Shown here one piece after another: positions 3,820 through 47,941 of a stretch of DNA of 49,302 nt. Both the position numbers and the translations under genes were made by a program. Source of the stretch: a virus. Below the pieces are notes generated by a model, which was given only the letters and a program-made list of their open reading frames with translations, was not told the origin of the DNA and made no database searches. The stretch spans positions 1-49,302 of the IMG/VR virus record IMGVR_UViG_3300015245_000014, one strand, 5' to 3'. The stretch's first letter is position 1. Each line of letters begins with the position of its first letter.

Positions 3820-3914
3820 TTAAATCCATGCCTAAATATATTTTAATTTGATTTAATTTTAGTAAAATGCCAGATTTATATCTATGAAAATTATTAGGAG
3901 AATCAATAAAAGTT

Positions 3915-5558
3915 ATGAGAATGAATGGCGCTCTCAAGCTACTCAACAATATTGATCAGAGATTATCGCAATATAACCCGCAGAGGGAACAAAGGTTTAT
4001 TGATGAAGCTTCTATTATGGAAAATGATTTCCATTCATTCTTAAAGGGATGTTGGCAAGTCATAGAGGGAGAGAGGCCATTCATAGATGGGTGGCATATA
4101 CAGGCATCATGTGAGCATTTAGAAGCCCTGTATCGCCTTGAAATTAAAAAGCTTCTGTGGAACGTACCTCCTGGTACATGTAAATCAACTATCTTCTCCG
4201 TAGCCTTCCCTGCGTGGGTATGGGCGAATGAGCCCTCCCTCCAATTCATGTATTCATCGTATGGTGCCAAGCTCTCCACGCGGGATAACGTTAACTGCCG
4301 CCGTATTATCGAATCAAAATGGTTTAGGGATAGATGGGGTCATAAATGCCAGTTAACTGAAGATGTCAACACGAAACTAAGGTTCGATAATAAACAAGGA
4401 GGCTATCGAATTGCGACCAGTATCAAAGGCGCAGCAACGGGTGAGCATGTAGACTTTATAGGTTTTGATGACCCTAACAATGCCAGTGAAACGGAATCCG
4501 AAGTAAAGCGTGAGGGGACCAATGAAACATGTGACCGTGTTATGTCATCACGTTTTAACAATCCTAAAACAGGAAGATTGTGCATTGTCCAGCAAAGGCT
4601 TCATTCCCAAGATTATTCCGGCCATACCCTTGCAAAAGAAATAAAAGATTTGGTTCATCTTTGTTTGCCAATGGAATTTGAGAGGTCACGCAGATGTATA
4701 ACTGTTCCTCTCAAGAGCACGGGCGGAAAAAAATGGCATGATCCTAGAATTGAGGAAGGGCAGTTACTTTGGCCTGAGTTTTTCGATGAGGAACATGTTG
4801 AAAAATTAAAAATTGATCTGAAGGGTGAGTATAATGTGGCAGGGCAGCTACAACAAAGACCATCCCCAGGAGAGGGAGGAATCCTCAAGAAAGATTGGTT
4901 CCAATGGTGGAAGGAACCTGCACCACCCCGTTGCCATTATGTCATTCAATCTTGGGATACAGCATTAAGCACGAGACCAGATGCTTGTTTTAGCTGCTGT
5001 ACAACATGGGGTGTGTTCAAAGATCAATATGGTGTGTCGCAAGTTATGCTTCTGGATACGTGGCATGGTCGAGTTGAATATCCGGACTTACGCAGAATGG
5101 CGATTCGTTTAGCCCATAATTATCATGATACTCATATTGACCATCCTGTACCGGAGGATTCTGTCATGAAACCGGATATGATCGTAATTGAAGCAAAAGC
5201 AAATGGGTTATCCCTGATTCAGGATTTATCGCGTGCCGGATTAATTGTTAACCGTTTTGATCCTGTTAAACATGGAGGAGGGGATAAAACAGTACGGGCG
5301 CGCTTGATGAGCCATGTTCTTGAAGCTGGACGTATATGGGTACCATCTAGACCACCAAATTATACGGCTCTTCGCCCTTATGCAGATGTCTTCGTGGAAT
5401 CATGTGCAAAATTCCCAAATGATGCAGATTCAAGGGATTATGTTGATAGTATGAGCCAAGCTATAATCAGGTTAATGATGTCTGGACTTATCGGCAATCC
5501 TGATGATGCAGAGATAAGTAAACAGTATAACAGGTGGGAAGGTGAGAAATTCTATTAG
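3915..5558 (+). CDS. terL: terminase large subunit (packaging ATPase-nuclease)
   Basis: This is the motor ATPase and nuclease that packages DNA through the portal. The ATPase half shows a Walker A variant, VPPGTCKST (84-92), with Cys in place of the usual Gly before Lys-Ser. A Walker B, FIGFDD (181-186), and a likely coupling motif, SSRFNNPKTGR (about residues 211-221), follow. The nuclease half shows acidic residues in QSWDTAL (about 346-352), IVIEAKANG and DYVDSM (508-513), as in RNase H-fold terminases. Length 547 is normal. The only Shine-Dalgarno-like AGGAG (3895-3899) is about 15 bp from the ATG, so initiation is probably weak. No small terminase was recognised nearby. Confidence 0.93.
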   Translation: MRMNGALKLLNNIDQRLSQYNPQREQRFIDEASIMENDFHSFLKGCWQVIEGERPFIDGWHIQASCEHLEALYRLEIKKLLWNVPPGTCKSTIFSVAFPAWVWANEPSLQFMYSSYGAKLSTRDNVNCRRIIESKWFRDRWGHKCQLTEDVNTKLRFDNKQGGYRIATSIKGAATGEHVDFIGFDDPNNASETESEVKREGTNETCDRVMSSRFNNPKTGRLCIVQQRLHSQDYSGHTLAKEIKDLVHLCLPMEFERSRRCITVPLKSTGGKKWHDPRIEEGQLLWPEFFDEEHVEKLKIDLKGEYNVAGQLQQRPSPGEGGILKKDWFQWWKEPAPPRCHYVIQSWDTALSTRPDACFSCCTTWGVFKDQYGVSQVMLLDTWHGRVEYPDLRRMAIRLAHNYHDTHIDHPVPEDSVMKPDMIVIEAKANGLSLIQDLSRAGLIVNRFDPVKHGGGDKTVRARLMSHVLEAGRIWVPSRPPNYTALRPYADVFVESCAKFPNDADSRDYVDSMSQAIIRLMMSGLIGNPDDAEISKQYNRWEGEKFY

Positions 5559-5658: not shown

Positions 5659-6252
5659 TTAATGCAGTGTCCTTGAACTGTGGGCTAAACGGTAACATTC
5701 TATTACATTAAATTTTTCCCTTAAGGATTCAAATTCTTGTGAAAGAAGGAATGCCAATGTTGCTTGCGCCCGTGCCACAGGTATATCATTATCACTGCTT
5801 CCAGCCTTTACAATCATGCCAGAACTGGTGTATTTGAGCATTTTAATGTGGTTTATAAATCCGCAATAATAAGAGAATACCTCGGCAAGAAAAATGATAA
5901 CGAAACAATAAGAGGAGCCATTTAGTATGATATCATGCTTAGACTCCTTGAGTAGGGAAAGGATATCTGATATTTGATTTAAGGCATAACCAACAATTGA
6001 AAGGGAGTTTAAGAAGTAATCTTTGATTGCCTCAACAGCTTCATTATCAATAATGGTACAAACATCTGCAAACATAAGCATTAAATCTGAACCACTCATA
6101 TCAGCAATAGAATTAATAGATTCTAAATAATTTTTGTATTCTTCAATATTATCTTCATTTATTAAAATAACAGGTAGATTATTGCAATACTCATATAACA
6201 ATCCGCCACTCTTTATCTTGTGTAATTCTTTATTATTACTTAAATCAATCAT
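5659..6252 (-). CDS. hypothetical protein, 197 aa, leftward
   Basis: Not recognised. It is largely helical and acidic, with a moderately hydrophobic central region (around residues 100-135, containing YCFVIIFLAEVFSYYCGFIN) that could be one membrane helix or a buried core helix. It lies alone on the minus strand inside the rightward late cluster, between terminase and portal. A long imperfect inverted repeat (6287-6363) sits in the gap upstream of it. Such an isolated reversed gene is typical of a morphon acquired by transfer. Confidence 0.6.
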   Translation of the reverse strand: MIDLSNNKELHKIKSGGLLYEYCNNLPVILINEDNIEEYKNYLESINSIADMSGSDLMLMFADVCTIIDNEAVEAIKDYFLNSLSIVGYALNQISDILSLLKESKHDIILNGSSYCFVIIFLAEVFSYYCGFINHIKMLKYTSSGMIVKAGSSDNDIPVARAQATLAFLLSQEFESLREKFNVIECYRLAHSSRTLH

Positions 6253-6467: not shown

Positions 6468-8792
6468 ATGACTGAAGAGCCCGAAGTATTTCAAGAAGAT
6501 TTTCTATTTCAACTCCCCTCCATTCTCCAACAAATTAATGAAGAGCCTCAAGATGAGGAGGATTTTTCAGATCAATTCATCCAGCCCACATATTCAGGTC
6601 ACAATGAAAATCTGGCGGAAGTTCTCCCTGAGGTAGTTATCCAGAAAATATCTGCAAATCTGATAGATGATATAGAAAATGATATTTTATCCCGTAGCGA
6701 TTGGGAGAATGGCCTTTCTGAAATTTTAAAAGAATTAGGGATTAAGGTTGATAAAAGGAACTTCCCCTTCGACGGCGCGAGCGGTATTTATTCCCCTATT
6801 GTCATGAGGACAGTTGTTGAGTTCTTTGTTAATGCCGTCCCCGAACTGCTTCCCTTGGAAGGCCCTATTAAACAACGCATTATCGGAAAAGTTACTGAGG
6901 AGCTTCAAGATAAAGCAAACCGTGTAGAACAATGGACAAACTTGTTTTTTACAAAAGAAGCCCCTGAATATTACAGCGATATGAAAAAAATGTTGATATG
7001 GCTCGTAATCGGCGGGGACATGGTTCGCAAAACTTACTTTGACCCTATCTTGAAGCGCCCAACATCCCGCTATCTCATGCCACAAAACTTTATTGTCAAA
7101 TACGGAACTACTGATTTAGAAACATGTACCCGTATGACAGAACTCAAAGATGACATGAGCAAGTTTGATATTGCAAAGTATCAACAGATGGGAATTTACA
7201 GGGATATTGAGTTATCAGACAATGATGATGGGGATAATTCAAATCTCAAGAAAACCATTGATTATGTTGAAGGAATGAGTGTTCCTAACTATGAAAACAA
7301 TGATATTTACCCCATTTATGAATGCCATGCTAACCTTGATATCAAAGAATTATCCGAAGATCAAAACGGTGAAAATGATTCATCTGAAAACCTGAAGGAA
7401 AGCAATTACAGGCCCTATATCGTTACGATTGCCAAGAAATCCAATAAAATATTGGCAATTTACCGGAATTGGGAAGAGGGAGATAAGGATTATAAGCGTA
7501 TAGATTCCTTTACTAACTATGTCTACATGGAAGGATTAGGCTTCTATGGATTAGGAGCAGCGCATTTAATATGTGGTCTGGCACAAGGAAGCACCCAACT
7601 GTTGCGTCAGACATTGGACGGCCAGACCCTTTCGAACTTTCCAGGTGGGTTACGTGCAAAAGGGATGCGCGATACGGACAATAATATCAAGGTAGGTCCT
7701 ACTGAATTTATTGAAATTGATACAGGGGGGCAACGTATTCAGGATGTGATTATGCACATGCCATATAAAGAGCCTTCACCTTATATAAATGAATTGCGTA
7801 AAGAATTAGAAGCGTCTGCGGCGGGTATTATGGGCGCAGCTAATTCACAGATTGCAGATTTTAACCCAAATGTTCCTGTAGGAACTACTTATGCCCTCCT
7901 AGGTTTACTATATAAAGTTCAAAGTACTGTTATCCGTGGGATCAGGGATTCTATGGAGAAAGAATTCAAGATTTTTTATAGGCTATTTGAAAAGCATTTG
8001 CCTGACGTTGAATATCAGTTTGAAGGTAATGGCTTATCTTCATTTATCAAATCAGATGACTTTAATGAAAATATCAATATTATCCCCGTTGCTGATCCAC
8101 ACGTCACATCTGAAGTGCAACGCCTCATTCGGAGCCAGTTAATAGTAGATAGTGCGAATCAAGCCCCTGACCTTCACGACCGATATATAGCTTACAGGAT
8201 GCTTTATAAATCAATGAAGCTTACTGATACAGAGATTGATAAACTTCTTCCTCCTGAAGATAAGTTATTGCCTCTTGATCCTATTACGGAAAATCAAAAT
8301 TTAATTCAGGGAAAAGCTGCTGTAGCTTCTATAGTCCAAGATCATGCATCCCATAAAATAATTCATAATATTATTTTGAATGACCCTAATTCTTCTCCTC
8401 AAATCATTGCTGCGGTCATGGCACATATCGCTGAACACACAGCCTTTGAATCTTTGATGAATATGGAGCAAATTATGGGTTTCCAGATGCCTTCTAACCC
8501 CTATGATTTGCCTATGGAAGTTCAAAATCAAATTGCGATGCTTGGTGCTCAAGCTCTGATGCAACAGCAGCAACAACAGGCAGAACAAGCGCCCCCTCCT
8601 CCGCTTGATCCAGCCCTTGTGATGCTTGAAGAGGTAAAAGTTAAAGATAAGGGAATTGATGAAAAGGCGAAAGCGGATCAACTTAAGGCACAAACGGAAG
8701 CTTTCAAGGCTCAATTGAACTATGAGGCTGAGATGAAGAAGATTGAATTAAACGAAAAAGAACTTGAATTAAAAGCCCAAGGAATTATCTAA
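6468..8792 (+). CDS. portal protein (P22-like, podoviral)
   Basis: At 774 residues it has the size of P22-type portals (about 725) and lies directly downstream of terminase. Recognisable stretches are the acidic N-terminus, FPFDGASGIYSPIV (about residues 102-115), a long helix-rich middle and the late helical tail. The tail is Gln/Pro-rich (QQQQQQAEQAPPPP, about 695-708) and followed by a Lys/Glu coiled coil to the end. The portal ring docks terminase, nucleates the procapsid and connects to the adaptor and nozzle encoded downstream. Weak AGGA lies 9 bp before the ATG. The gap upstream (6253-6467) carries the inverted repeat and a TAAAAATTTTC motif. Confidence 0.88.
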   Translation: MTEEPEVFQEDFLFQLPSILQQINEEPQDEEDFSDQFIQPTYSGHNENLAEVLPEVVIQKISANLIDDIENDILSRSDWENGLSEILKELGIKVDKRNFPFDGASGIYSPIVMRTVVEFFVNAVPELLPLEGPIKQRIIGKVTEELQDKANRVEQWTNLFFTKEAPEYYSDMKKMLIWLVIGGDMVRKTYFDPILKRPTSRYLMPQNFIVKYGTTDLETCTRMTELKDDMSKFDIAKYQQMGIYRDIELSDNDDGDNSNLKKTIDYVEGMSVPNYENNDIYPIYECHANLDIKELSEDQNGENDSSENLKESNYRPYIVTIAKKSNKILAIYRNWEEGDKDYKRIDSFTNYVYMEGLGFYGLGAAHLICGLAQGSTQLLRQTLDGQTLSNFPGGLRAKGMRDTDNNIKVGPTEFIEIDTGGQRIQDVIMHMPYKEPSPYINELRKELEASAAGIMGAANSQIADFNPNVPVGTTYALLGLLYKVQSTVIRGIRDSMEKEFKIFYRLFEKHLPDVEYQFEGNGLSSFIKSDDFNENINIIPVADPHVTSEVQRLIRSQLIVDSANQAPDLHDRYIAYRMLYKSMKLTDTEIDKLLPPEDKLLPLDPITENQNLIQGKAAVASIVQDHASHKIIHNIILNDPNSSPQIIAAVMAHIAEHTAFESLMNMEQIMGFQMPSNPYDLPMEVQNQIAMLGAQALMQQQQQQAEQAPPPPLDPALVMLEEVKVKDKGIDEKAKADQLKAQTEAFKAQLNYEAEMKKIELNEKELELKAQGII

Positions 8793-8902: not shown

Positions 8903-9256
8903 ATGAATAGAAGTCATCGGGAAGAAGGGCAGAAAGAAGGCCGTGGCCCTGGTTTAATCGGCGAAAAAACAGAAAAGACAAGCAGCTATGATCATGCTGG
9001 ATGGGGTGCAGTTGATAAGATGCTGAAAGGTGAACATCCAACCACAAATATAGCAACAGTAGCTTGTGCCAGTTCCAAGATGGGACATTATAAAAATGGT
9101 GGGTCAGTAGAAAATGAGCAACGTAAAATGGTTGAAGGAAGAGTAGACCACATGCGTGATAATATGAAAAATTTCGGTCACGCAAAAAAGGGCGGCTCCA
9201 TGAAGCAGAAATTTGCTCAAGGTGGTGTCGGAAAAGTTCGCAAGGGCGAATATTAA
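8903..9256 (+). CDS. small Gly/Lys-rich structural-region protein, 117 aa
   Basis: A hydrophilic, basic protein rich in Gly, Lys, Met and His, with short repeats such as KKGGSMKQKF and KNGGSVENEQ. Similar small Gly/Lys proteins are common beside portal genes of podoviruses with uncertain roles. An AAGAGGAT motif precedes the start. A 10-bp hairpin (9263-9308) follows its stop, so this gene may be transcribed with the portal or from its own leader. Function unknown. Confidence 0.7.
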   Translation: MNRSHREEGQKEGRGPGLIGEKTEKTSSYDHAGWGAVDKMLKGEHPTTNIATVACASSKMGHYKNGGSVENEQRKMVEGRVDHMRDNMKNFGHAKKGGSMKQKFAQGGVGKVRKGEY

Positions 9257-9262
9257 AGAATA

Positions 9263-9308
9263 TGAAATGGGGCGGATGGAAATATGCGGAAATCAACACC
9301 CCATTTCA
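9263..9308 (+). terminator. long-loop hairpin, possible terminator
   Basis: TGAAATGGGG (9263-9272) pairs perfectly with CCCCATTTCA (9299-9308) across a 26-base loop. The downstream sequence is T-rich but is not an unbroken T tract. It follows the 8903-9256 gene and precedes a promoter at 9368, so it plausibly separates two transcripts. Confidence 0.5.
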
Positions 9309-9367
9309 CTTCTATTATATCATAATGAATCTTATATACTAATCTATAAAATTTTCAAAAAAATTTA

Positions 9368-9397
9368 TTGACATTTAATTTACCCTCCTTATATCAT
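9368..9397 (+). promoter_or_regulatory. sigma70-type promoter before the chaperonin/capsid cluster
   Basis: TTGACA (9368-9373), an 18-bp spacer and TATCAT (9392-9397) form a good consensus promoter 42 bp upstream of the 9440 start. A TATAAAATTTTA motif lies 7 bp further on (9405-9416), around the expected transcription start, and another (TATAAAATTTTC) is at 9345. This promoter would drive the 9440 gene, the GroES-like gene, the scaffold candidate, the 11237 gene and GroEL. Confidence 0.65.
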
Positions 9398-9439
9398 GGT
9401 GAAGTATAAAATTTTAACCAAATTATAAATGAGGTAAAT

Positions 9440-9676
9440 ATGTCCATTGAACAATTCAAAGAAAACTTGGTTATTCCATTAAAGAGAACAATCGAACAAC
9501 ATAAAGCTCCTACCCTTTCTCAATTCCTTTCACGTGATGACCTGACAAAACAGTGGGATCGCGCAGAAGGTATGGTAATGACATTGAACCATATAGAATC
9601 TACTTATGCGGCGATGCAGAATGCTAATAATCCTGAGACTGCACAAAACGTAGAAGTTCTTCCACCACAGAATTAA
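9440..9676 (+). CDS. small hypothetical protein, 78 aa
   Basis: Mostly helical, beginning MSIEQFKENLVIPLKRTIEQ. The middle segment is LSRDDLTKQWDRAEG and the end is a Pro/Gln/Asn-rich tail. GAGGT lies 6 bp before the ATG. It precedes the GroES-like gene by 9 bp and is the first gene of this transcript. In other podovirus head clusters a small helical protein occupies this place, but I do not recognise the family. Confidence 0.7.
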   Translation: MSIEQFKENLVIPLKRTIEQHKAPTLSQFLSRDDLTKQWDRAEGMVMTLNHIESTYAAMQNANNPETAQNVEVLPPQN

Positions 9677-9685
9677 AGAGAAAAA

Positions 9686-10093
9686 ATGCGAGAATTACCT
9701 ACTAACGATATAATTCGTCAGGTATTGGGGGAAGATCATTCCGTTTCGGTGGGATGGCGTGTCCTTATCAAAATTCATAACTTTGGTGATCATTATATTA
9801 TGGAAGACGGCTCAAAAAGCCTTCTTGAGAGGCCTGATATTGCCAAAGATAGGGACAAAACCCAAATGCCAGTAGGCCAGATTCTCATGATTGGTGGTGC
9901 TGCCTTTAAGGGGGATAAATTCAAAGATTGGGATGTTATCCCCCAAGTAGGCGATTACGTCTTATGGGAAAAATATTCTGGTTCTTTTGATACAGAATAT
10001 GGTGTCGATTTATTAGACATTCATGATTATCAGATTATTAGAATTGTTAAAAATCCAGATCGGGCAAACTACCATAATTGGAGAGGCAACTAA
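9686..10093 (+). CDS. GroES-like co-chaperonin, 135 aa
   Basis: The cpn10 fold is recognisable. GWRVLIKI (23-30) matches the first strand, and residues 31-60 are a polar stretch where GroES has its mobile loop. PVGQILMIGGAAF (62-74), PQVGDYVLWEKYSG (86-99) and DLLDIHDYQIIRIV (108-121) match the conserved 'G-x-V-x-x-V-G', 'V-G-D-x-V' and terminal 'D-I-x-A-I-V' elements. It is longer than bacterial GroES (about 95) because of a 22-residue N-terminal extension, a longer mobile-loop region and a 14-residue tail. It would cap the GroEL encoded 1.7 kb downstream. A hydrophobic binding tripeptide is not certain; YIM (37-39) or SLL (45-47) are candidates. Confidence 0.75.
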   Translation: MRELPTNDIIRQVLGEDHSVSVGWRVLIKIHNFGDHYIMEDGSKSLLERPDIAKDRDKTQMPVGQILMIGGAAFKGDKFKDWDVIPQVGDYVLWEKYSGSFDTEYGVDLLDIHDYQIIRIVKNPDRANYHNWRGN

Positions 10094-10104
10094 AGGATTA
10101 TTTA

Positions 10105-11229
10105 ATGATTCCAGAAGATAATGGCACTAACACAACGCAGCAAATTTACCAACTTGCAACACAACCTATCTTTGCAACCGACCATAATGTAGAACCAGAA
10201 AATGTATCTTGGGAAGTATCAGATGGGTCTCTTGACCATCTTGCAACCCCTGTAGAAGATAATACAGGACAAGAAGAATCTCCTGTTCATCCTGATAATG
10301 AAGATGTTGAAAAATCACGGGATATTGCATCAGAAAGCAATGATCCTTTATCTGAAGATGAAGAAGAAAAAACAAAGAAAAAGAATCGTATATCCGAAAG
10401 AAAAAGGATAGCGCAGCTAACACGTCAGTTAAAACAAGCTCAGTCTGTGACCCATGATGTTTTAGCCCGCAATCAATATCTTGAAACGAAATTAACAGAA
10501 AAACAAAAGGAAGCCTTTGCGAGCGAGGAAAATTTTCTCTCTTCCCAAAAAGAACGTGTAAAGAAAATTCTTACAGATGCAATTGAAGAGGGTGATGCGC
10601 CTAAGATAGCAGAAGCACAGGATTTATTAAGCCAGTACAATGCTCAGATACAATTAAAAAAGACGCAAGCAACCACATTTCAAAATACTCCGCAAAATAC
10701 ATATACTCCCCCTTCACAAGACGTGGGAGAACATGACGATGATATTAATGAAGAAGGGCGTACGTGGCTTGAGACTAATAGCTGGGCTGATCCTAAAGCA
10801 GATGATTTTGATGAAGACCTTTATAACGTTGCGGATCAATACTCCATAAAATTAGCTAAAAAATATACCCTGCAAGGAAAAAAATCAGATATTGGCTCTC
10901 CTAAGTTTTGGAATGAAATAACCAATTATATGAACGAGAGTTACGATATCAGTGATGAATCTTCCTCTGAGGATTCTTATACTCCTCCCCCTAAAACACA
11001 ACCGAAGGGGCGTACTCCCATGAAAAATACATCATCCAATACGGTTGCGCCTGTTTCAAGGCAAAGCGTTCCTGGAGAATCACCAAGAAAACAAAATGAT
11101 ATTGTTCTTACACCAGAGCAACGCGATGCAGCCTATGCAATGCGAGGATATGTAAGAGACCCCAAGACAGGGCAGCCAATTAATGACCGGAAAGTTCTAG
11201 AAGAAGTTTATAAGAGAAACATGAGGTAA
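10105..11229 (+). CDS. probable scaffold protein, 374 aa
   Basis: The protein is very acidic and Gln/Asn-rich. A long predicted coiled coil (about residues 95-200, including KRIAQLTRQLKQAQ and NQYLETKLTEKQKE) is followed by a disordered Pro/Thr/Ser region. A short basic C-terminus follows (EVYKRNMR, the usual site for scaffold-capsid contact). Its position just before the capsid genes and this composition are typical of scaffolds. I start at 10105 because AAAGGA (10092-10097) is well spaced from it. The in-frame ATG at 10078 lies inside the GroES-like gene and has no ribosome binding site. Confidence 0.75.
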   Translation: MIPEDNGTNTTQQIYQLATQPIFATDHNVEPENVSWEVSDGSLDHLATPVEDNTGQEESPVHPDNEDVEKSRDIASESNDPLSEDEEEKTKKKNRISERKRIAQLTRQLKQAQSVTHDVLARNQYLETKLTEKQKEAFASEENFLSSQKERVKKILTDAIEEGDAPKIAEAQDLLSQYNAQIQLKKTQATTFQNTPQNTYTPPSQDVGEHDDDINEEGRTWLETNSWADPKADDFDEDLYNVADQYSIKLAKKYTLQGKKSDIGSPKFWNEITNYMNESYDISDESSSEDSYTPPPKTQPKGRTPMKNTSSNTVAPVSRQSVPGESPRKQNDIVLTPEQRDAAYAMRGYVRDPKTGQPINDRKVLEEVYKRNMR

Positions 11230-11236
11230 ATTAACA

Positions 11237-11791
11237 ATGGTAAAAAATAAAAATGAAGATGTGCAGGATGTTTCTATATTTCCAGATGGAATGACTTTAA
11301 ATTCATGGAGTGATGGGGGCAGAGAAGTTGATATTGCGGCTGAACGTACCCGTGTTGATGATAAGAGGGTATATGCACAAACTCCAACGAATAAGCGTGG
11401 TCATTTATGGTTTCCTCTGGATCAAATTCCCGAAGGCTGGAAATATGGATGGTTTACGGAAAGACTTTTAGGAGAGCCTCAAAGTGATAACTTGCAAGAA
11501 GCCTATGAAAATGGTTGGGATTTTGTCAAGCAAAGTGATCACCCTACCTATCAGGTGAGAGAGCTTTATACGAATCCAGATAATAGAATTAGACGCCGTA
11601 ACAATGTGTTAATGAAAAAACCGTTACATGAATACGATAAAGCTCAACAGGAATATGTAGAAGAGAGCGCAGCCAAACAACGGGAAATTTCATTTTTAAC
11701 AAATCATTTCAGTGATGGTTATAACGACCCGCGATTTGTTGTAGAAAACAGTGGCTCTTATACACCAGCTTATACGCATAAAAGAGGTTAA
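11237..11791 (+). CDS. capsid-cluster protein, 184 aa
   Basis: The stretch GHLWFPLDQIPEGWKYGWFT (55-74), followed by LLGEPQSDNLQEAYENGW, then a His-Pro, then NNVLMKKPLHEYDKAQQEY, resembles a family found next to capsid genes in several podoviruses ('W-P-L-D-x-x-P-x-G-x-x-Y-x-W', 'G-W-x-P-V', 'L-M-x-x-P'). The function of that family is unknown to me; a minor head or head-associated role is inferred. It sits between the scaffold candidate and GroEL and its stop is 1 bp from the GroEL ATG, so the two are coupled. Confidence 0.7.
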   Translation: MVKNKNEDVQDVSIFPDGMTLNSWSDGGREVDIAAERTRVDDKRVYAQTPTNKRGHLWFPLDQIPEGWKYGWFTERLLGEPQSDNLQEAYENGWDFVKQSDHPTYQVRELYTNPDNRIRRRNNVLMKKPLHEYDKAQQEYVEESAAKQREISFLTNHFSDGYNDPRFVVENSGSYTPAYTHKRG

Positions 11792-11792
11792 T

Positions 11793-13451
11793 ATGTTTCC
11801 AAAAATTATAAAGTTTGGTGATGAAGGTCGCTCAAAGATCATTGAAGGTGTTAATATCCTTGCCAATTCCGTAAAGGCAACATTAGGGCCTCAGGGAAGA
11901 AATGTATTAATTGGTAACAAAGGTGCACAAGCCAGATTTACCAAAGATGGTGTTTCCGTAGCCAAGGAAATTTGCCTTGAAGATGCAATTCTTGATACGG
12001 GGGCGCAAATCATCCGTGAAGTTGCCCTGAATACATGTAATACGGCTGGTGATGGTACCACGACGGCTACTGTGATAGCTCAGATCATCATTAATCAAGG
12101 AATGGGATTTATCACGCAAGGGGATAATCCAGTTGAATTAAGGCGTGGTATAGAAATTGCAGTTAATGAAATGGAGATGTTTTTAAAGCATCACTCCAAA
12201 CAAATTACGACTTCTGAGGAAATTTGTAATATTGCCACAATAGCTGTCAATGGTGACAGGGAGCTTGGTAAAATCATTGCAGATACTTTTGAAAAGGTCG
12301 GCGCAGAAGGTGCGATAACTTTGGAAGAATCCGCATCCGGGAAAACAGAATCTAAAATTGTTGAAGGATTGCAACTCGATAAAGGATACATTTCTCCATA
12401 CTTTGTCACAAATCCTGCAAAGATGACTTGTGAATTAGAAAATCCATATATTCTTGTTTATGACAAGAAAATATCCACCCTTCAACCTATGATAGCTCTA
12501 ATCCAATCAATCGTAGCCTCTAATGATCCTCTTCTCATTATTGCTGAGGATGTAGATTCAGAAGCTTTAGGGATGATGGTTCTCAATAAGAAAAACGGAT
12601 TTAAATTTGCCGCCATTAAGATGCCTTCTTTCGGGGATCATCGTATAGACCTGATAAGCGATATGTCTATCATGACCGGGGCTACAGTATGTTCACAAGA
12701 TTCCGGAATTAATCTGGAAAGCATCCGCAAGGAAATGTTAGGACGTGCAAAGAAAGTCATCATTACCCAAGATAAGACAACCATTATGGGGGGAGAAGGT
12801 AATAAAGATGAAATTGAAAAAAGATGCCATTACTTGCGGGAAGAAATTAAAAAATCAGAAGATCAGAAGGCAAAGAAACAATTAGAAGAACGTCTCGCCA
12901 AGCTGACCAATGGGATTGCCATTATTAAAGTCGGGGGTGAAAACGATCTCGATATGAAAGAGCGCAAGGACAGGGTTGAAGATGCTGTGCATGCAACCCG
13001 TGCTGCCCTTCAGGAAGGGATATTACCAGGTGGGGGTGTTGCTTTATTAAGGGCATCCGAACATCTATTATCCCTTGATGATTTGCATCAATTTTATAAA
13101 AATAGTCCATCTATTATGAATGGAATTTATTTGGTAGAAACAGCCGCTAAAGCTCCTTGGCAACAAATACTTGAAAATGCGGGCAAGATTCCCGAGGAGA
13201 TCATGGAGGAATTAAATTCCCATGAAAGGAAAAGTGAGTTTGAATTAGGATATGATGCCTTGAATTTCAGGATTGTTGATATGATTGAGGCGGGTATCAT
13301 AGACCCTACAAAAGTAGTGATGAGTGCCTTGAAAGATTCAGCGTCTATTGCGGCCCTGCTCCTTACAACCCAAGTTATCCTTATTGAAGAAAATGAGATA
13401 ACACTTAATACGGTTAATGGCCCCTCAAATTCTATCAAAGTTAGGGTGTAG
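11793..13451 (+). CDS. groEL: phage-encoded 60-kDa chaperonin GroEL, 552 aa
   Basis: A full-length group I chaperonin. ATP-site residues are kept: LGPQGRN (31-37), D52 in FTKDGVSVA, D87 in AGDGTTTATV, and D397 in EDAVHATRAA (E. coli D398), followed by LPGGGVAL. Apical substrate/GroES contacts are kept in GYISPYFVTNP (E. coli Y199, Y203 and F204). At the ring-ring interface the residues equal to E. coli R452, E461, S463 and V464 are Q457, I466, E468 and E469; these are the four positions changed in single-ring mutant SR1. The Gly-Gly-Met C-terminal tail is absent. AAAGAGG lies 5 bp before the ATG at 11793. It probably folds the capsid or other virion proteins. Confidence 0.97.
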   Translation: MFPKIIKFGDEGRSKIIEGVNILANSVKATLGPQGRNVLIGNKGAQARFTKDGVSVAKEICLEDAILDTGAQIIREVALNTCNTAGDGTTTATVIAQIIINQGMGFITQGDNPVELRRGIEIAVNEMEMFLKHHSKQITTSEEICNIATIAVNGDRELGKIIADTFEKVGAEGAITLEESASGKTESKIVEGLQLDKGYISPYFVTNPAKMTCELENPYILVYDKKISTLQPMIALIQSIVASNDPLLIIAEDVDSEALGMMVLNKKNGFKFAAIKMPSFGDHRIDLISDMSIMTGATVCSQDSGINLESIRKEMLGRAKKVIITQDKTTIMGGEGNKDEIEKRCHYLREEIKKSEDQKAKKQLEERLAKLTNGIAIIKVGGENDLDMKERKDRVEDAVHATRAALQEGILPGGGVALLRASEHLLSLDDLHQFYKNSPSIMNGIYLVETAAKAPWQQILENAGKIPEEIMEELNSHERKSEFELGYDALNFRIVDMIEAGIIDPTKVVMSALKDSASIAALLLTTQVILIEENEITLNTVNGPSNSIKVRV

Positions 13452-13469
13452 TGTAGAAATACACCCTAA
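13441..13469 (+). terminator. 10-bp hairpin overlapping the groEL stop codon
   Basis: TTAGGGTGTA (13441-13450) pairs perfectly with TACACCCTAA (13460-13469) over a 9-base loop. The GroEL stop (TAG, 13449-13451) lies in the stem. A run of T does not follow, so it may be a weak terminator, a processing site or a 3' stabiliser that sets GroEL expression apart from the very abundant capsid proteins downstream. Confidence 0.6.
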
Positions 13470-13544
13470 AAATATAAAATTAATTTAAAATTTTATCTTT
13501 TATCCTTATTATACCTAAAATTATATGATAATATACCGAATATA

Positions 13545-13645
13545 AACTACCTAGCAATCCTCGGTAGTTCGTCCCTTCGGGTTGACGTCCCTGAAATAGT
13601 AGGTATTGGAACCTCATTATTTCTTTACCGCACATAAAGCTGCGG
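13545..13645 (+). ncRNA. structured 5' leader of the capsid operon
   Basis: Three hairpins can be drawn in the 240-bp gap before the decoration and capsid genes. The first is AACTACC (13545-13551)/GGTAGTT (13563-13569). The second is CGTC-CC (13570-13575)/GG..GACG with a TTCG tetraloop (13576-13579) and a two-base bulge. The third is CCGCA (13628-13632)/TGCGG (13641-13645). The 5' strand of hairpin 1 (TACCTA, 13548-13553) can instead pair with TAGGTA (13600-13605), giving a mutually exclusive fold. A TTTAAAATTTTAT motif lies upstream (13484-13496). It is probably a cis-acting leader for stability or translation control. Confidence 0.5.
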
Positions 13646-13690
13646 AAAATCCTCAACTATACAATTTAATATTTTTTCAGGAGTTTAAAC

Positions 13691-14293
13691 ATGACTTATG
13701 GTGTTAATGCGCCTTTGGGATTGCAAGCTTCATCCTACGGTCTTTCTGCACCATGGACAGGCGCTATCCAAGAATTTCCTATTACAGCAAATTATGGGAC
13801 ATCTTTGTTCCTTGGAGATTTGGTTACTTTTACAAATGGTCAATTAGTTCGATATAACACAAGTGGTAGTTCTACCATTCCATCCGGTGTTTTTTGGGGA
13901 TGTGAATATACGGACCCTACTGGTATTTACCAATTTCAAAAATTCTGGCCCGCAGCTCAAGCTGTCAAAGTTGGCACAACACCTATTGCCAAAGTAATTG
14001 TTGATACAAATACAATCTTTACAATTCAATCTAGTGCTGCTTTTGCGTGGGCAAATTTGGGTAAAAACTTTGACGTTACATTTGCAACACCTGGGAATCC
14101 AGCTACCGGAGAATCTGGCATGATGTTGGATTATACGTCTGTAGGAACCACGGCTACCCTTCCTTTGCATGCAATTGCTTTTGATACGGTTCCTGGAAAT
14201 GCACCATCTGTTGGTGGAACAAGCGTTGCATTCGCGAACATTCTCGTCAAATTAAACAACACAATCATAAATGCTGGCGCAACAGGAGTATAA
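13691..14293 (+). CDS. head decoration / capsid-associated protein, 200 aa
   Basis: A beta-rich, Gly/Thr/Ala-rich protein of low charge. The elements SLFLGDLVTFTNGQL (about residues 38-52), GVFWGCEYTDPTG and FWPAAQAVKVGTTPIAKVIV fit the phage family in which a short beta domain decorates the head. It lies 5 bp before the major capsid gene, behind CAGGAG and the structured leader, as expected for an abundant virion protein. The exact role (decoration or minor capsid) is inferred from position and composition. Confidence 0.65.
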   Translation: MTYGVNAPLGLQASSYGLSAPWTGAIQEFPITANYGTSLFLGDLVTFTNGQLVRYNTSGSSTIPSGVFWGCEYTDPTGIYQFQKFWPAAQAVKVGTTPIAKVIVDTNTIFTIQSSAAFAWANLGKNFDVTFATPGNPATGESGMMLDYTSVGTTATLPLHAIAFDTVPGNAPSVGGTSVAFANILVKLNNTIINAGATGV

Positions 14294-14298
14294 CAAAC

Positions 14299-15204
14299 AT
14301 GGCTATCATCACATTATCCAGTATTAGAGACCTTTTACGGCCTGGTTTAGCTGCCGTGTTTGGGGACTATTTAACTTATCCGGATCAGTGGAAAGAGATT
14401 TTTACATCCCACATTTCCGATAAAGCAGTGGAATACGAAGTCGAAATGCGGCTATTACCAATGGCGCAATTCAAGGCTGATGGTGGAGCGGTTTCCTATG
14501 GAGACATGGCACAGCAATACACTACCTCTTATCACCACCGGAATTTTGGCATTGGCTTTCAAATTTCAGCCAATTCGATTCGTGATAACCTTTACAAGGA
14601 TTCGTGGCCTCGTGCAACGCAGTCTGGCAAGGATTCCATGCGTCAAGCTAAAAACATTGAAGGCGCACAAATTATTAACAATGGGTTCAATCCTAACTTC
14701 CCCGTGAGCGACGGTCAGCCATTGTTTTCAACGACTCACCCTGTTCAGGGAAATGTGGTTCCAAATACATTTGCGTTGCCAACTCAGTTGAATGAGACCT
14801 CCTTACAAGATGCATTAATTGGCATCCAGAAGTTCTTGAATGCTGCTGGTCTTCGTATTGCATTGAACTCTACAAAACTTATTGTTCCCCCTGAGCTTCA
14901 GTTCACGGCAAACGTATTGTTGGAAAGTAAATATCGTACGTCAACAGCTAATAATGATATATCGGCTATTTATAACTTAAGTAGTGTTCCAATGGGTTAC
15001 AGAACAAATCAATTTTTGACAAATCCTCAACAGTGGACATTACTTAGTGATGAAAGTAATGGCTTCAAATATTATGAGCGTGACCCATTAACTATTGATA
15101 TGTTCACAGATACGACTACCCGTAACTTGAACGTTACTTTCGTTGAGCGTTATTCATTTGGTTGTTCTAACTGGCGTGCAGCCTTTGGATCAGCAGGAGT
15201 ATAA
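14299..15204 (+). CDS. major capsid protein (HK97 fold, Mu gpT-like), 301 aa
   Basis: The order of motifs matches the Mu gpT-type capsid family of about 305 residues. These are FGDYLTYPDQW near the start, GGAVSYGDMAQQYTTSYHHR (58-77), the long helix with MRQAKNIEGAQIINNGFN, PLFSTTHPV, LRIALNSTKLIVPPELQF, GFKYYERDPL and the terminal ERYSFGCSNWRAAFGSAG. There is no N-terminal delta domain long enough to be cleaved, consistent with the separate scaffold upstream. It forms the head shell and is the likeliest client of the phage chaperonin. Confidence 0.88.
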   Translation: MAIITLSSIRDLLRPGLAAVFGDYLTYPDQWKEIFTSHISDKAVEYEVEMRLLPMAQFKADGGAVSYGDMAQQYTTSYHHRNFGIGFQISANSIRDNLYKDSWPRATQSGKDSMRQAKNIEGAQIINNGFNPNFPVSDGQPLFSTTHPVQGNVVPNTFALPTQLNETSLQDALIGIQKFLNAAGLRIALNSTKLIVPPELQFTANVLLESKYRTSTANNDISAIYNLSSVPMGYRTNQFLTNPQQWTLLSDESNGFKYYERDPLTIDMFTDTTTRNLNVTFVERYSFGCSNWRAAFGSAGV

Positions 15205-15207
15205 AAT

Positions 15208-16308
15208 ATGAGTATTTCTACCCCACCACAGGGTACTCATTTTTCCGACGGTGTAAGAGTTGGCCCTATCTTGGGGTCAACTTTTACAGCTGGGGAAAAT
15301 GTATTTGCCCCATCAGTTGTTGTCCCTTCCCCTATTGATCAATTGCCTCCTGGGATTTATGACACTCCCATGTCATTACTTGATATAACACCTTTTCAAG
15401 CTATTGCAAATTCAATAGCTGATGATTATATCGTTCCCGCAGCGGGATATGTTCCAATTGTAACAACAAGTGGCAACGGCTTACTTGTTGTTACCTTTCA
15501 ATCGATTCCGAATGTTATCCAATTGGATTGTGCTCGTGTCCTTGCATTTACGGGAGGGGCTGGCACTCTTTTTCATAATTTTACGATATTTGGGTGGGAT
15601 CAATATGGTATCCCAATGGTTGAATCCGTATCAGGGCCTACCGGAGTTGATCAGACATTTGGAAAAAAGGCATTTTTGTATATTAGGGCTATTTATGCAG
15701 ACGGTGGTACCGTCGGAACCATATCGATTGGGACAGGCGATGTCTTTGGTCTGCCATATTTGATTAATTTTGAAAATTACATAATGGCTCCAATATGGAA
15801 TGGGTCTGTTGATAACGGTACACGAGTTGCCGGTGATCAAAGACCCGCACAAATTGATACAGGAGATGTGAGAGGTACCTATGATCCTTCTAACGGTTCT
15901 GACGGGGCTAAAAGGCTAACTATTAATTTATATAACGGTAGTGGTGATATAAGAAATTACAACAACTCCAATAGTGGTAATCGATTATTACCATTTGAAC
16001 CGCTTACAACATTGAATGGATCCGCAGTAATAAGGGTTCATGCGCCTAATCATCAAATGGTAGAAAATGAAAAAGTTACCATTTCGGGTGCAATTAATTT
16101 CAATGGGATTCTTGCCTCACAGTTAAATATCACGGCTCCTGTAAGTGTAATTAATGGAGATACATTTACTTATCAATCAAATGGTGTTGCTAATTTCTCT
16201 GATGCGGGAGGGGGTGGATCGGTATTTATGACTCCTGGAAACGGAAGATTATATCAGACTACCGTGGGAAGATTTGGTGTATCTCAATTCAATATGCCCC
16301 TAATTTAA
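15208..16308 (+). CDS. beta-rich virion protein A of a tandem pair, 366 aa
   Basis: Starts 3 bp after the capsid stop with AGGAG well placed. Domain order: an N-terminal part with GTHFSDGVRVGPILGS (residues 9-24); a beta domain with FTIFGWDQYGIPMVESVSGP; and a C-terminal 80-residue inserted domain (about residues 262-342) with VTISGAINFNGILASQLN and FTYQSNGVANFSDAGGGG. The next gene is a clear paralogue over its full length. Abundant expression and position suggest a head or connector surface protein. No enzymatic motif is seen. Confidence 0.7.
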   Translation: MSISTPPQGTHFSDGVRVGPILGSTFTAGENVFAPSVVVPSPIDQLPPGIYDTPMSLLDITPFQAIANSIADDYIVPAAGYVPIVTTSGNGLLVVTFQSIPNVIQLDCARVLAFTGGAGTLFHNFTIFGWDQYGIPMVESVSGPTGVDQTFGKKAFLYIRAIYADGGTVGTISIGTGDVFGLPYLINFENYIMAPIWNGSVDNGTRVAGDQRPAQIDTGDVRGTYDPSNGSDGAKRLTINLYNGSGDIRNYNNSNSGNRLLPFEPLTTLNGSAVIRVHAPNHQMVENEKVTISGAINFNGILASQLNITAPVSVINGDTFTYQSNGVANFSDAGGGGSVFMTPGNGRLYQTTVGRFGVSQFNMPLI

Positions 16309-16319
16309 AGGGAAATATT

Positions 16320-17426
16320 ATGAGTACAACTCCTTATTCATCTGGAACCCATTTTTCTGACGGCATAAGGACTGGCCCTATATTAGGATCGTCCTTTGTG
16401 CCTGGAAAAAATATTTTATCTCCTTCTTCTATGGTAGCAACCCCAATTGATCAAGAGCCGCCCGGGATTTTTAATGCTCCCATTTCGGTTATGAATGTAA
16501 TACCTGTTGATCCATCATTTGATAGAATTGTTGCGCCTGTTCAAGCCCTTCCTGGATATCTTGATATAGCTAATACAAATGCTTTTGGAATAAAGATAAT
16601 AACTTATCAAGGAATTCCGAATGTTATTCAATTGGATTGTGCCAGAAATATAACTATTGATGGGTTAAATTTGGACACCACTCAATCTCAATTTGATATA
16701 TACGGGTGGGATCAGTATGGCATTCCAATGGTTGAACGTATAGGGGGACCCGAAGGACTAGAGACGGTCTCTGGGAGAAAAGCATTTTCCTATATCCGTG
16801 CCGTATTTTCTTCGTCAGATACGGTTGGTTTTATTTCTATTGGTGTAGGAGATACGTTTGGATTACCTTATTTTATCCCTACTATACAAGCGATAATTAA
16901 TGTTCTATGGGAAAATCAAGTTGATGATGGGGTATTGATTATTGGGGATCAAAGCGATGCAACAGCGATTACAGGAGATGTAAGAGGCACTTATAACCCG
17001 ACTACCGGTGCCAATAATGAAAACATGTTAACTATCTATTTTTATAATTGGAGTGGAGACGCCCAAAATTATAATATGGCTAATAGTGGGACAAAAATTC
17101 TAGCTGCTCAACCATTATCAACTATATTTGGAGAATCAGTCATCACTGTTAAGGCTCCCATTCATCAATTAATATTGGGTCAGCAAATTACAATTAGCGG
17201 TGCTGCAGGATTTGCCAATATATCTGCTGAACAATTAAACCTTACAACCACTGTAACCGCGATCATTGATGAAAATCAATTTCAATATAATTCTTTAGGG
17301 ATTGCCAATCTCACTGATACGGATGGAGGAGGTGAAGAGGTTGTGCTTTCCCCTTCACGTGGTAATTTATATGCCACTCCTATAGGGAGATTTGGTGTCC
17401 AACAATATAGTATTGAGCCAGTTTAA
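16320..17426 (+). CDS. beta-rich virion protein B of a tandem pair, 368 aa
   Basis: Full-length paralogue of the preceding protein. Shared blocks are GTHFSDGIRTGPILGSSF at the start, GIPNVIQLDCAR, FDIYGWDQYGIPMVERIGGP, FSYIRAVF, GVGDTFGLPYF, TGDVRGTYNP and the closing GRFGVQQYS. It also keeps the C-terminal inserted domain (QITISGAAGFANISAEQLN, then DTDGGGEE). Divergence in the linkers shows the duplication is old. The two probably form neighbouring or alternative surface subunits of the head or connector. Confidence 0.7.
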   Translation: MSTTPYSSGTHFSDGIRTGPILGSSFVPGKNILSPSSMVATPIDQEPPGIFNAPISVMNVIPVDPSFDRIVAPVQALPGYLDIANTNAFGIKIITYQGIPNVIQLDCARNITIDGLNLDTTQSQFDIYGWDQYGIPMVERIGGPEGLETVSGRKAFSYIRAVFSSSDTVGFISIGVGDTFGLPYFIPTIQAIINVLWENQVDDGVLIIGDQSDATAITGDVRGTYNPTTGANNENMLTIYFYNWSGDAQNYNMANSGTKILAAQPLSTIFGESVITVKAPIHQLILGQQITISGAAGFANISAEQLNLTTTVTAIIDENQFQYNSLGIANLTDTDGGGEEVVLSPSRGNLYATPIGRFGVQQYSIEPV

Positions 17427-21956: not shown

Positions 21957-24900
21957 ATGCCTTCAACTAGTGCATTTGATGCTTTAGACGTCCTTACGGT
22001 AAGTGGTAGTGCAGTCGTGGAAATGGGAGAAGATACTGCAATAATAACAGGTAATTGGGAAGCATCCCCAGTAATGACCCAATGGGGAGGAACTGGAAAT
22101 ATTGGAATGGACCCTTTTGCAGTTATATGCGGAGGCATTACAGATTTTGATGAATTTCAAAGTGTCCCTCAAACTGGAATTATGGGTTACGTTTTAACTT
22201 ATACAGGGGATACTTCACTTCCCTCATGGCAACCCGCTGCTGGTGGAGGGGGCGGAAGTACACTTCCTGATGCTGCCCTGGATAATCAGCTTTTGGTTTC
22301 TGTAGCAGGAACAGACCCAGTGTGGAGAAGTAATTTTATTGATACTTTATCCCCAACTTATAATTTATTTTTAGGTACTGATGCTGGAAATGCAGCTGTT
22401 GGGGGGGATTTCAATACAGCAATGGGAGGAAAATCTCTCATGAATATTGATCCCGCGGGAGGAGACAGCAATAGCGCATTTGGTTATCAAAGTGGTTCTA
22501 CAATACAAAGTGGGGATGGTAATTCATGTTTTGGATATTCATCTCTTAAATCTGAAAAAGCGGGCACATTTATATGTTCATTTGGTTATTCAGCACTTTT
22601 TTCACAGTTTAATGCGACCGGAATATCTCCTGGAAATGATGCGTTTGGTGCTTTTGCAGGTCAAAATATTACAGACGGACGTTTTAACAGTATATTTGGA
22701 TACAATTCTCTTTCAACCGAAGTTAGCGGATCGTCAAATTCCTCTTTTGGTTATCAATGCCTTAAAAATCAGCTTGATGGAGCCGACAACTCAGCATTTG
22801 GAAGAGAAGCCGGAACATCCATAATAAATGGATTTGGAAATAGTATTTTTGGTAAATGGGCTTTAAAAACCGAGACTACAGGGCAAGATAATTGTGCTTT
22901 CGGGAGAGGTTCCCTTACATTACAAAATGGAGCAAATTTCAATTCTGCTTTTGGTTCATTTTCTGGGGATAGCCTGAGTACAGGGTCAAACAATTGTATT
23001 TATGGATACTTATCTCTTCAAAATGAGACTACCGGATCAAATAATTGTGCATTTGGTGTTAATTCCCTTGTAAATCAAGTTGCACAATCTGGATCATCAG
23101 CATTCGGTTTTGAGGCCGGTAAGCATATAACAAATGGAAGTAATAGCTCAATTTTTGGCTATCAATCTCTTTTGAATGAAAATACAGGGGACAACAATTC
23201 ATCTTTTGGATACCAAGCTTTAAAATCTCAAGTTGGCGTAGATGGGAGTTCGGCTTTTGGGCATTTATCTGCAACTTCACTTACTACCGGAGTAAGAAAT
23301 TCTTCTTTTGGTTACCGATCTCTTGCGAGTGAGAATGTCGGAATAGAGAATTCGGCCTTTGGTTACCAAGCTCTTAGCAGCCAGGTAGGCGGTACAAGAA
23401 ACGGCGCATTTGGTGCTCAAACTTGTCAAGACCTTACCTCTGGAGATTTCAATAACGCTTTTGGAGCTTATTCTCTTTCAAACGAGACGACCGGATCATT
23501 AAATACCACTATGGGTGAAAGTTCCCTTTTTACACAGAATGGCGCATCACACAATACAGCATTTGGCGCAGCAACGGGTGGATCATTAACCACCGGAGGA
23601 CAAAATAGTATTTTTGGTTGTACAGCCTTACAATCTGAAAATATAGGATCAGCAAACTGTTCATTTGGACACGAGAGTTTGTTAAATCAAGTAGGTGTAA
23701 CTGGAAATTCAGCATTTGGTTTCCAATCGGGAAGCGAATTAACGACAGGGAATCAGACTTGTATATTTGGTTATCAATCTCTTCAAAATGAGACCACCGG
23801 AATAAACAATTCATCTTTTGGGTATCAATCACTTAAAACCCAGATTGGCGCATCTGCCAATACTTCTTTTGGCGCTTTTTCTGGAGCTGCGATTACGACT
23901 GGAAGCAACAACGCAATATTTGGTGTTGCCGCTCTTAATAGTGAACATAGCGGTAGTGATAACTGTGCATTTGGAACCTTTGCACTCCATGACCAACAGG
24001 GAGTTAGTGAAAGCTGTGCATTTGGTCATTTTGCCGGAACAAATATCACCACTGCAATTGGATCATGCATTTTTGGTGCTGAAGCTTTATTAACGGAAAG
24101 CACAGGAAACTACAACTCTGCTTTTGGGTACCATGCAATTAGAAATCAAAATGGCGTAGTAGGCACTTCAGCATTCGGCGCATTTGCAGCTTCAAGTTTG
24201 ACCACCGGAATAATGAATAGTGCTTTTGGTTTTAGAGCGTTAGAAATTTCTACTACCGGGCAACACAATTGCGCTTTTGGTGATAATTCTTTAAGCCTTT
24301 TGACGACCGGATTCGATAATTGTGCTTATGGATCATCAAGTGGATTCGCAATCACAACCGGATCACAAAACTCAATGTTTGGACTTGCAGCAATGGGGTC
24401 AGAGCGAACAGGATCATCGAATAGTGCTTTTGGATTTAATTCTTTATTATTACAAAATGGAGCAAGTAATAATAGTGCATTTGGAGCATTTTCAGGAGAC
24501 AGAATTACTACTGGAAATAACAATAGTATTTTCGGTTTTGGTGTTTTAGTTAATGAGACTACCGGATCAAATAATTGTTCTTTTGGGGTAGGATCATTAA
24601 GCAATCAAAATGGTGTAAGTTTCAATTCAGCATTCGGTAGCAATGCTGGTCTTAATTTAACAACAGGTGGCGATAACAATATATTTGGTTATCAAGCTCT
24701 TTTTCATGAGACTAACGGTCAAGGAAACTGTGCATTTGGGAATGAATCTTTGAATGTTCAGGTCGGCACAAGTTTCAATTCAGCATTTGGCTGTTTTACT
24801 GGTTCCCACCTTACAAATGGTTTTGAGAATTCAATATTTGGCAACAGTGCTTTGCAAACTGAGACCACCGGATCATCGAATAGTGCTTTTGGATACCTTG

Positions 24901-40310: not shown

Positions 40311-40922
40311 TCAGTTAAAGATAGAATTATCGTTGATACTTTTGAATCTATTGGCAGCCATGTGTGTGTATAATTCTGTAGAAGAGACACGAACATGTCT
40401 TAGCAAATCTCTTATTTTTAACAGGTGAACATCATTGTTGGCAAGGAAAGTACCACGGGAATGCCTGAGCATATGAGGAGTAAAAGGAAAATCAAATCCC
40501 GCAATCTCACCAAGATTTAATGTTAACTTATAAAAGTTTGGACGCTCAAACTTTGTGCCCCATCTGCTGGATGTAAATACATATTTATGATCTTCCCTAA
40601 AATTGTTATTAGCATATTGGGCTTTGTCTCTCTGATTTTTCAATTCGAGGAGTAGTGTTTTTTCCATTTCCCATAGGGGCTGTAGTGAATCTTTCCCCCC
40701 TTTTTGACCTTTGGTAGATATAACATTGTTTTTAAAATCAATCTCTTCCCATTTTAGGCTGCATACTTCTGCTGCACGATAGGCATGCATATAGGTAACA
40801 AGTACTAAAGTCTTGTTTCGTAAAGGAAAAGGAGTCTCATTACAAGCCTCAAGGACTTGTTCTATCTCATTTTCGTAGAGGAATTTTCGTTCTTTTTTAT
40901 GTATCTTTTTCGGATTCGTCAT
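40311..40922 (-). CDS. short tyrosine recombinase (FimB/FimE-like), 203 aa
   Basis: The catalytic set is complete: R49 in AYRAAEVCSL, a Lys in KGQKGGK (71-77), H150-x2-R153 in HMLRHSRGTF, H176 in LLRHVRVS and the Tyr185 nucleophile in STELYTHM. There is no arm-binding or core-binding domain. At 203 residues it matches the FimB/FimE class (about 200), while ordinary phage integrases are 330-400. It would catalyse site-specific integration or inversion. It is at the distal end of the leftward operon like lambda int, and overlaps the preceding gene by 26 bp. Confidence 0.85.
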   Translation of the reverse strand: MTNPKKIHKKERKFLYENEIEQVLEACNETPFPLRNKTLVLVTYMHAYRAAEVCSLKWEEIDFKNNVISTKGQKGGKDSLQPLWEMEKTLLLELKNQRDKAQYANNNFREDHKYVFTSSRWGTKFERPNFYKLTLNLGEIAGFDFPFTPHMLRHSRGTFLANNDVHLLKIRDLLRHVRVSSTELYTHMAANRFKSINDNSIFN

Positions 40923-46468: not shown

Positions 46469-46469
46469 A

Positions 46470-47786: not shown

Positions 47787-47941
47787 AATCACTAACAATA
47801 CATACATCAAATATGAAAAAAAACATTACCACGGAGGTAATAAGAGTTTATAACACATCTTATTCCCCCCTTCCAAATGTTTTTTTCTGGTTAGTGAATA
47901 AAAAGTTAATTTATTTACAATTTAATCAGGAAATAGAAATT

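Follow-up and report, generated by a model that had tools for sequence, protein, structure and literature searches.

Phage T4 brings its own co-chaperonin, gp31, to head assembly and relies on the GroEL of its host; the capsid protein served by gp31, gp23, is about 56 kDa. gp31 is built without roof loops (PMC6318259). The chaperonins of phages EL, OBP, and AR9 work with no co-chaperonin (PMC9598537, PMC7185714). Some phages are also recorded as carrying GroEL together with GroES (PMC7185714), with further examples in GenBank, and GroES has been annotated in CRP-901-type phages (PMC10149686). Here, we analysed the IMG/VR virus record IMGVR_UViG_3300015245_000014 over its 49,302 nucleotides (hereafter the window), in which a GroES-like gene and a groEL gene lie within the head-assembly cluster. 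We propose that they form a group I chaperonin system which the phage encodes for the morphogenesis of its head, an explanation to which we give a probability of about two in three. A first-pass annotation had regarded a phage carrying both genes as rare; such phages were known already (PMC7185714; Flavobacterium phages immuto and elemo, Cellulophaga phage phi38:1), though not with the genes in a head module of the Mu gpT type.

The chaperonin genes of the window

The groEL gene (11793-13451, plus strand) encodes 552 amino acids (aa) and starts at an ATG (AAAAGAGGTTAATATG) with a good Shine-Dalgarno sequence, 1 nt past the stop of the conserved head-module gene p184; a GTG at 11751 was rejected as the start in its favour. 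Its product exceeded the cut-offs of Pfam Cpn60 (E 6e-67, score 226.8 against 34.3) and TIGR02348 (610.5 against the equivalog cut-off of 582.1), gave a 498-bit match to 1iok, and was, among the matches listed, up to 49% identical to the bacterial GroELs sampled. Judged by profiles and residue alignment, it is unambiguously a full-length group I GroEL. The ATP-site residues D52, D87, T89-91, D398, and D495 are invariant in 10/10 members of the clade of related phages described below. The apical groove is hydrophobic (Y199, Y203, F204, I234, I237, L259, V263, L264, N265), with conservative changes at 234, 237, and 264; across the clade, position 264 is L, I, or K in 10/10 members, as opposed to V in 79/80 bacteria. 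As in bacterial and organellar GroEL-GroES systems, the window thus has a full-length Cpn60 with an intact ATP site and a cpn10-fold partner. It differs from them in that the two genes are not adjacent, R452 and V264 are changed, and the GGM tail of GroEL is replaced by a conserved EENEITLN..PSN..K(I/V)R. Phages EL, OBP, and AR9 likewise encode a Cpn60 of their own, and changed ring-ring contacts are possibly a further likeness, but the EL chaperonin is only 24% identical to the window GroEL and the two do not fall in one sequence group. The top-scoring bacterial GroELs, among the matches listed, were mostly from Alphaproteobacteria. We assigned no host from this, because in the tree the clade GroEL is found on a long branch next to those of other phages.

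The GroES-like gene (9686-10093, plus strand) encodes 135 aa. The protein had no match in a Pfam search, matched PHROG 3188 ('co-chaperonin GroES') weakly (E 0.0032), and matched the NCBIfam GroES profile at E 0.001, which is below its cut-off. Its ortholog in contig L002, 51% identical to it, exceeded the Pfam Cpn10 gathering score (22.4 against 21.1), the GroES of relative L021 was also above the curated Cpn10 profile cut-off, and the orthologs in L001-L004 all matched PHROG 3188. For the window protein itself, an AlphaFold (AF2) monomer model was obtained with a pLDDT of 89.4 and a pTM of 0.84. The best 27 matches of this model in the PDB were all Cpn10 (probability 1.00, E from 7e-6 to 5e-4); T4 gp31 matched much less well (E 0.014). 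These results indicate that the protein is, as far as sequence and model can tell, a divergent relative with the cpn10 fold and not a canonical GroES. Both chaperonin genes expected from the first reading are therefore present, GroEL by profiles and GroES by the profile score of its ortholog and by the predicted fold. No bacterial genome with the GroES-like gene was confirmed.

Compared with bacterial GroES, the window protein is 135 aa long, lacks the IVL tripeptide, and has an extra N-terminal helix (PTN..I...LG..H) and a C-terminal tail, both conserved in the clade and specific to it. The long mobile loop noticed earlier was confirmed: it lies at about residues 31-63 and, by alignment count, spans ~33 residues between its flanking strands against 23 in E. 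coli GroES. With T4 gp31 the protein shares a phage-borne cpn10, a longer mobile loop, and a link to head assembly. Unlike T4, the phage of the window encodes its own GroEL, and unlike gp31, its lid has a roof segment of ~20 residues between barrel strands (about residues 70-90), conserved in the clade. With this roof, a fold nearer GroES than gp31 (7e-6 against 0.014), and a major capsid protein (MCP) of 33.6 kDa as opposed to ~56 kDa for gp23, the case for a gp31-style enlarged folding cage, as had been suggested, is weak.

The gene order in the window is portal, GroES, scaffold-like gene, p184, groEL, p200, and an MCP gene of the Mu gpT type, which confirms the reported layout of two non-adjacent chaperonin genes between portal and MCP. 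Since this order recurs in independent IMG/VR contigs, it is due neither to chance nor to an assembly error.

Distribution of the two genes among related phages

A portal search of IMG/VR yielded 65 loci, the modules of which were annotated with hidden Markov models. Their common head module reads portal, GroES, scaffold-like, p184, p200, and MCP (Mu gpT type), with the GroES gene between portal and scaffold in ~55 related contigs as well as in the cultured phages HTVC027P, CRP-902, MinM2, and QDWS535, and a whole-record search with PHROG 3188 found the GroES-like gene in all relatives tested. The same order is present in the annotated records of CRP-902, MinM2, ct2G2228, HTVC027P, DSL-LC04, and QDWS535; Caulobacter phage GB2A probably shares it, with gp089c matching PHROG 3188. 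The window therefore resembles the modules of HTVC023P / CRP-901 / MinM2-type podoviruses in genes, order, and the place of GroES between portal and scaffold. It differs from them in its GroEL, as no GroEL was found in the whole records of any of the named phages from CRP-902 to GB2A (complete genomes in the case of HTVC027P, CRP-902, and MinM2). Whole-record searches of the larger GroEL-minus IMG/VR contigs found none either, with the genome of L067 as the sole exception. Because GroEL-less relatives carry GroES in place, the lid belongs to the module and the barrel gene does not; on this comparison of sequences, the lid gene is an old, ancestral fixture of the head module. The exceptional genome of L067 holds a divergent groEL (L082 2491-4206; 571 aa, Met/Gly-rich tail) at a distance of over 20 kb from the head cluster and without a neighbouring GroES, and the head-module GroES of this genome reads TENGFELS. 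This gene looks like an independent, second acquisition in the phage family.

At the p184-p200 junction, groEL was found in 12/12 GroEL-encoding contigs (window, L002, L003/L076, L004, L013-L018, L066, L071), beginning 1-5 nt past the p184 stop and transcribed in the same direction. In 35 relatives, this gap has no groEL and is short (16-267 nt; one overlap). Contig L001 ends before the slot, yet belongs to the clade, L017 ends inside groEL, and the near-identical L016, L017, and L018 were counted as one lineage; with L001 added to the 12 contigs, the clade has 13 members, the window among them. In the portal tree, the GroEL-encoding loci formed a single clade of 13 with a support of 100. In the GroEL tree, the clade was monophyletic (support 99) and repeated the main portal branching, and distances of GroEL and portal were correlated (r 0.72, Mantel p 4e-4). 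The ratio of nonsynonymous to synonymous substitution rates (dN/dS) was 0.065 for GroES and 0.09-0.13 for GroEL, and the latter indicates purifying selection and speaks for function. Altogether, the trees indicate that groEL was inserted once in this lineage and then inherited with the portal. The two genes thus did not enter the cluster together, contrary to what had been supposed: GroES is ancestral to the module and GroEL a later, single insertion.

We also considered that groEL could be cargo in an insertion-prone p184-p200 gap, either selfish or adding to fitness under host stress or superinfection. Indeed, the gap 3' of groEL is variable (239 nt in the window, 13452-13690, and 186-1158 nt in relatives), in L002 it holds a toxin-antitoxin pair of the YoeB/YefM type, and the groEL of the L067 genome is at a wholly different place. 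However, groEL is fixed in the clade and always lies 1-5 nt past p184 while the neighbouring cargo varies, and it was co-inherited with the portal under purifying selection, so that we regard mere cargo as very improbable.

Other arrangements were seen outside this clade. Tandem GroES-like genes, one long-loop and one short-loop copy, are present in the head module of L008 (7806-8252 and 8264-8695), L041 (13527-14519), L044 (12973-13893), and L050 (12963 onward), where no GroEL was found in the record. Both copies are mostly hydrophobic at the docking site, and a mixed-subunit lid for the host GroEL is possible. Flavobacterium phages immuto and elemo and Cellulophaga phage phi38:1 resemble the window in having their own GroEL plus GroES; in contrast to it, their groES and groEL are adjacent or one gene apart, outside a Mu-gpT head cluster. 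In the elemo phages, the GroEL and GroES genes are adjacent, and the structural genes include one for a further, cpn10-like protein of 180 aa (L169 3306-3848, minus strand, and 9001-10814). In phi38:1, a second GroES-like match was found at 50.2 kb; two lids per phage thus occur outside the family of the window as well. The uncultured siphovirus ctf1B273 has its groEL (L171 5640-7208) in the interval from terL to portal, and its record gave no match to GroES.

The docking motif of the lid and its proposed pairing with GroEL

The IVL tripeptide of GroES touches L234, L237, and V264 of GroEL; L27 is essential in E. coli and GroES L27A does not bind GroEL (PMC3514286). This GGIVL-type hydrophobic tripeptide is missing from the window GroES, which reads SLLERPD (S45-L-L-E-R49-P-D51), and it is replaced in 13/13 clade members by S/T-[LIVA]-[LF]-[EVI]-R-P-D, or S-phi-[LF]-x-R-PD, with Arg at the position equivalent to L27. 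The clade docking site aligns gap-free up to the following barrel strand, in a loop ~10 residues longer than that of E. coli. Most GroEL-less relatives keep GGI-x-[LVM] (GGIQLV, GGIILT, GGIIMP), as bacteria do, the HTVC023P / CRP-901 / MinM2 type having a mostly canonical GGIxL loop. Among the phages with both genes elsewhere, immuto GroES retains a hydrophobic G-x-I-I-I-PD, elemo reads SSGLYL, and phi38:1 GSGMTF. On the GroEL side, human mHsp60 has L at the V264 position, and this residue alone does not set specificity (PMC3514286).

A dedicated, partly re-addressed chaperonin appears to be the best reading of these changes. In its full form, the phage lid would have been re-addressed from the host GroEL to the captured phage GroEL by the change of IVL to S-phi-phi-x-R on a longer loop, possibly with a GroEL that has weakened ring-ring contacts and forms a single ring, which we put forward tentatively and with slightly less than even confidence. 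Several observations weigh against it. MinM2 (GGIIRPD) and QDWS535 (no GGIxL) are complete genomes in which no GroEL was found, so odd loops can occur with the host GroEL. Loop change and GroEL gain are each a single event (n=1 phylogenetically), and their coincidence in the clade is suggestive and no more. The GroES-GroEL mirror tree (r 0.36, partial r 0.15, p 0.14) gave no coevolution beyond shared ancestry. Moreover, the GroES tree rejects the grouping of the window with L013 and L015 (approximately unbiased test, p 8e-7) that is present in the GroEL tree and in the portal tree alike; by these trees, GroES was exchanged between sublineages independently of GroEL, which implies that the docking interface can at least be swapped among clade members. 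An Arg in place of L27 was rejected as a sufficient diagnostic of pairing with a phage GroEL, since MinM2 has it and no GroEL.

Some of these points would suit two parallel systems, in which the phage GroES continues to cap the GroEL of the host for capsid folding, as it would in GroEL-less relatives, and the phage GroEL works without a lid in the manner of the EL, OBP, and AR9 chaperonins, perhaps as a single ring. GroES was swapped independently of GroEL, GroEL-less relatives manage with GroES alone, and the phage EL chaperonin ignores E. coli GroES (PMC7185714). In addition, the inter-ring contacts R452, E461, S463, V464, and A109 are all altered in the window GroEL; R452, found in 80/80 bacteria, is missing from 10/10 clade members, and the other four drift across the clade in the residue alignment, changes that may weaken ring stacking. 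Against this, the window GroEL retains a hydrophobic apical groove (Y203, F204, L259, hydrophobic residues at 234 and 237, N265), with 498 bits to 1iok and a score beyond the TIGR02348 cut-off it is far nearer to classical GroEL than to EL (24% identity), and the host-type tripeptide of GroES was lost exactly in the GroEL-encoding clade. We consider two separate systems unlikely.

The GroES-like protein could also have ceased to be a lid and, still with its cpn10 fold, have become part of the head or of its assembly (a minor capsid protein or a scaffold-associated ring), GroEL being an unrelated passenger. In all relatives its gene is strictly beside that of the scaffold-like protein, which follows directly downstream, and the clade-specific N-terminal helix and C-terminal tail as well as the lost canonical docking motif would fit such a role. 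Yet the mobile loop has not been deleted but kept and made longer, the GGIxL motif for docking to GroEL persists in many relatives, and the roof segment is conserved, and we find a purely structural role distinctly improbable.

According to the explanation we prefer, a chaperonin system for head morphogenesis, the ancestral module (portal, small gene, GroES, scaffold, p184, p200, MCP) would already have had a co-chaperonin with a canonical GGIxL loop, presumably capping the host GroEL. A groEL derived from bacterial group I would have entered one lineage once, directly behind p184 and in the same direction. In the resident GroES, the canonical tripeptide would then have given way to S-phi-[LF]-x-R-P-D on a longer loop, and this GroES may now cap the phage GroEL. 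The pair would be made late, from the head operon, for ATP-driven folding of capsid-module proteins without competing for the host GroEL/ES; we take the MCP as the most likely client because of its position and the T4 precedent (PMC3012670), with the portal (88 kDa) and the scaffold as further candidates. A dedicated capsid-folding machine, as first proposed, is therefore plausible in view of the single origin, co-inheritance, purifying selection, and changed motif, while its independence from the host is something we only infer.

Neighbouring genes and meaning for phage chaperonins

The portal gene of the window (6468-8792, plus strand) is SU10-like by family match (PHROG 1216). Directly upstream of GroES lies a small gene of 78 aa, conserved across relatives (9440-9676, plus), and before both a near-consensus sigma-70-like promoter (TTGACA-18-TATCAT, 9368-9397, plus), a weak candidate since promoter and terminator site counts in the window are at chance level. 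The scaffold-like protein (10105-11229, plus; 374 aa, pI 4.8, with a Lys/Glu-rich, helical-looking middle) was assigned from position and composition and had no family match in Pfam or PHROG searches; its start was taken as ATG 10105, as the listed TTG 10078 would overlap GroES. For p184 (11237-11791, plus), recognized by its conserved position, the predicted structure (pLDDT 69.5) was too poor for a fold search. The conserved p200 gene (13691-14293, plus; PHROG and synteny), upstream of the MCP gene, bounds the groEL insertion slot on the right. The MCP, the proposed main client, has 301 aa (14299-15204, plus) and was assigned to the Mu gpT type by family match.

Further along, tandem paralogues of 366 and 368 aa (15208-16308, 16320-17426) share N- and C-terminal motifs, and at this position L004 has only one gene, a longer copy of 468 aa. 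An antisense gene without family (5659-6252, minus strand) lies between terL and portal, and similar open reading frames of ~200 aa have the same place and orientation in L001, L002, and L003. The 1254-aa product of 21957-25721, nearly all degenerate repeat (NSAFGYQSL..TG) with no Pfam match, is likely a receptor-binding or fibre protein. An integrase catalytic domain alone (40311-40922, 203 aa; no N-terminal half in upstream reading frames) was found, as were an Erf-like annealing protein and a replication initiator (45530-46483, 47813-49195), from which gene content the phage is probably temperate. In L002 and L003, type II toxin-antitoxin genes (PemK, YoeB/YefM, YafQ, ParE-like; Pfam) lie between structural genes (L002 4746-5631, 9802-10313; L003 357-617, 4914-5514), and L002 has an OmpA-like beta-barrel gene (3879-4640) with a similar reading frame in L003 (4162-4872).

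In the open-licence literature, we found no description of a groEL inserted in this head module or of a clade-wide rewriting of the lid docking motif. The locus bears on why certain phages encode an entire chaperonin and others just the lid, since one syntenic module presents before and after states: a lid alone with a canonical loop (HTVC027P, CRP-902, L021), tandem lids (L008, L041, L044, L050), and a lid with GroEL and a rewritten loop (window clade). Lid swaps between the lid-only and GroEL-encoding groups make chaperonin/co-chaperonin specificity and the question of the capsid client directly testable. A naturally orthogonal pair, if true, would be a useful folding tool, and re-addressing of the lid, if true, would be a natural specificity switch in GroEL-GroES with its pre-switch state kept in related phages.

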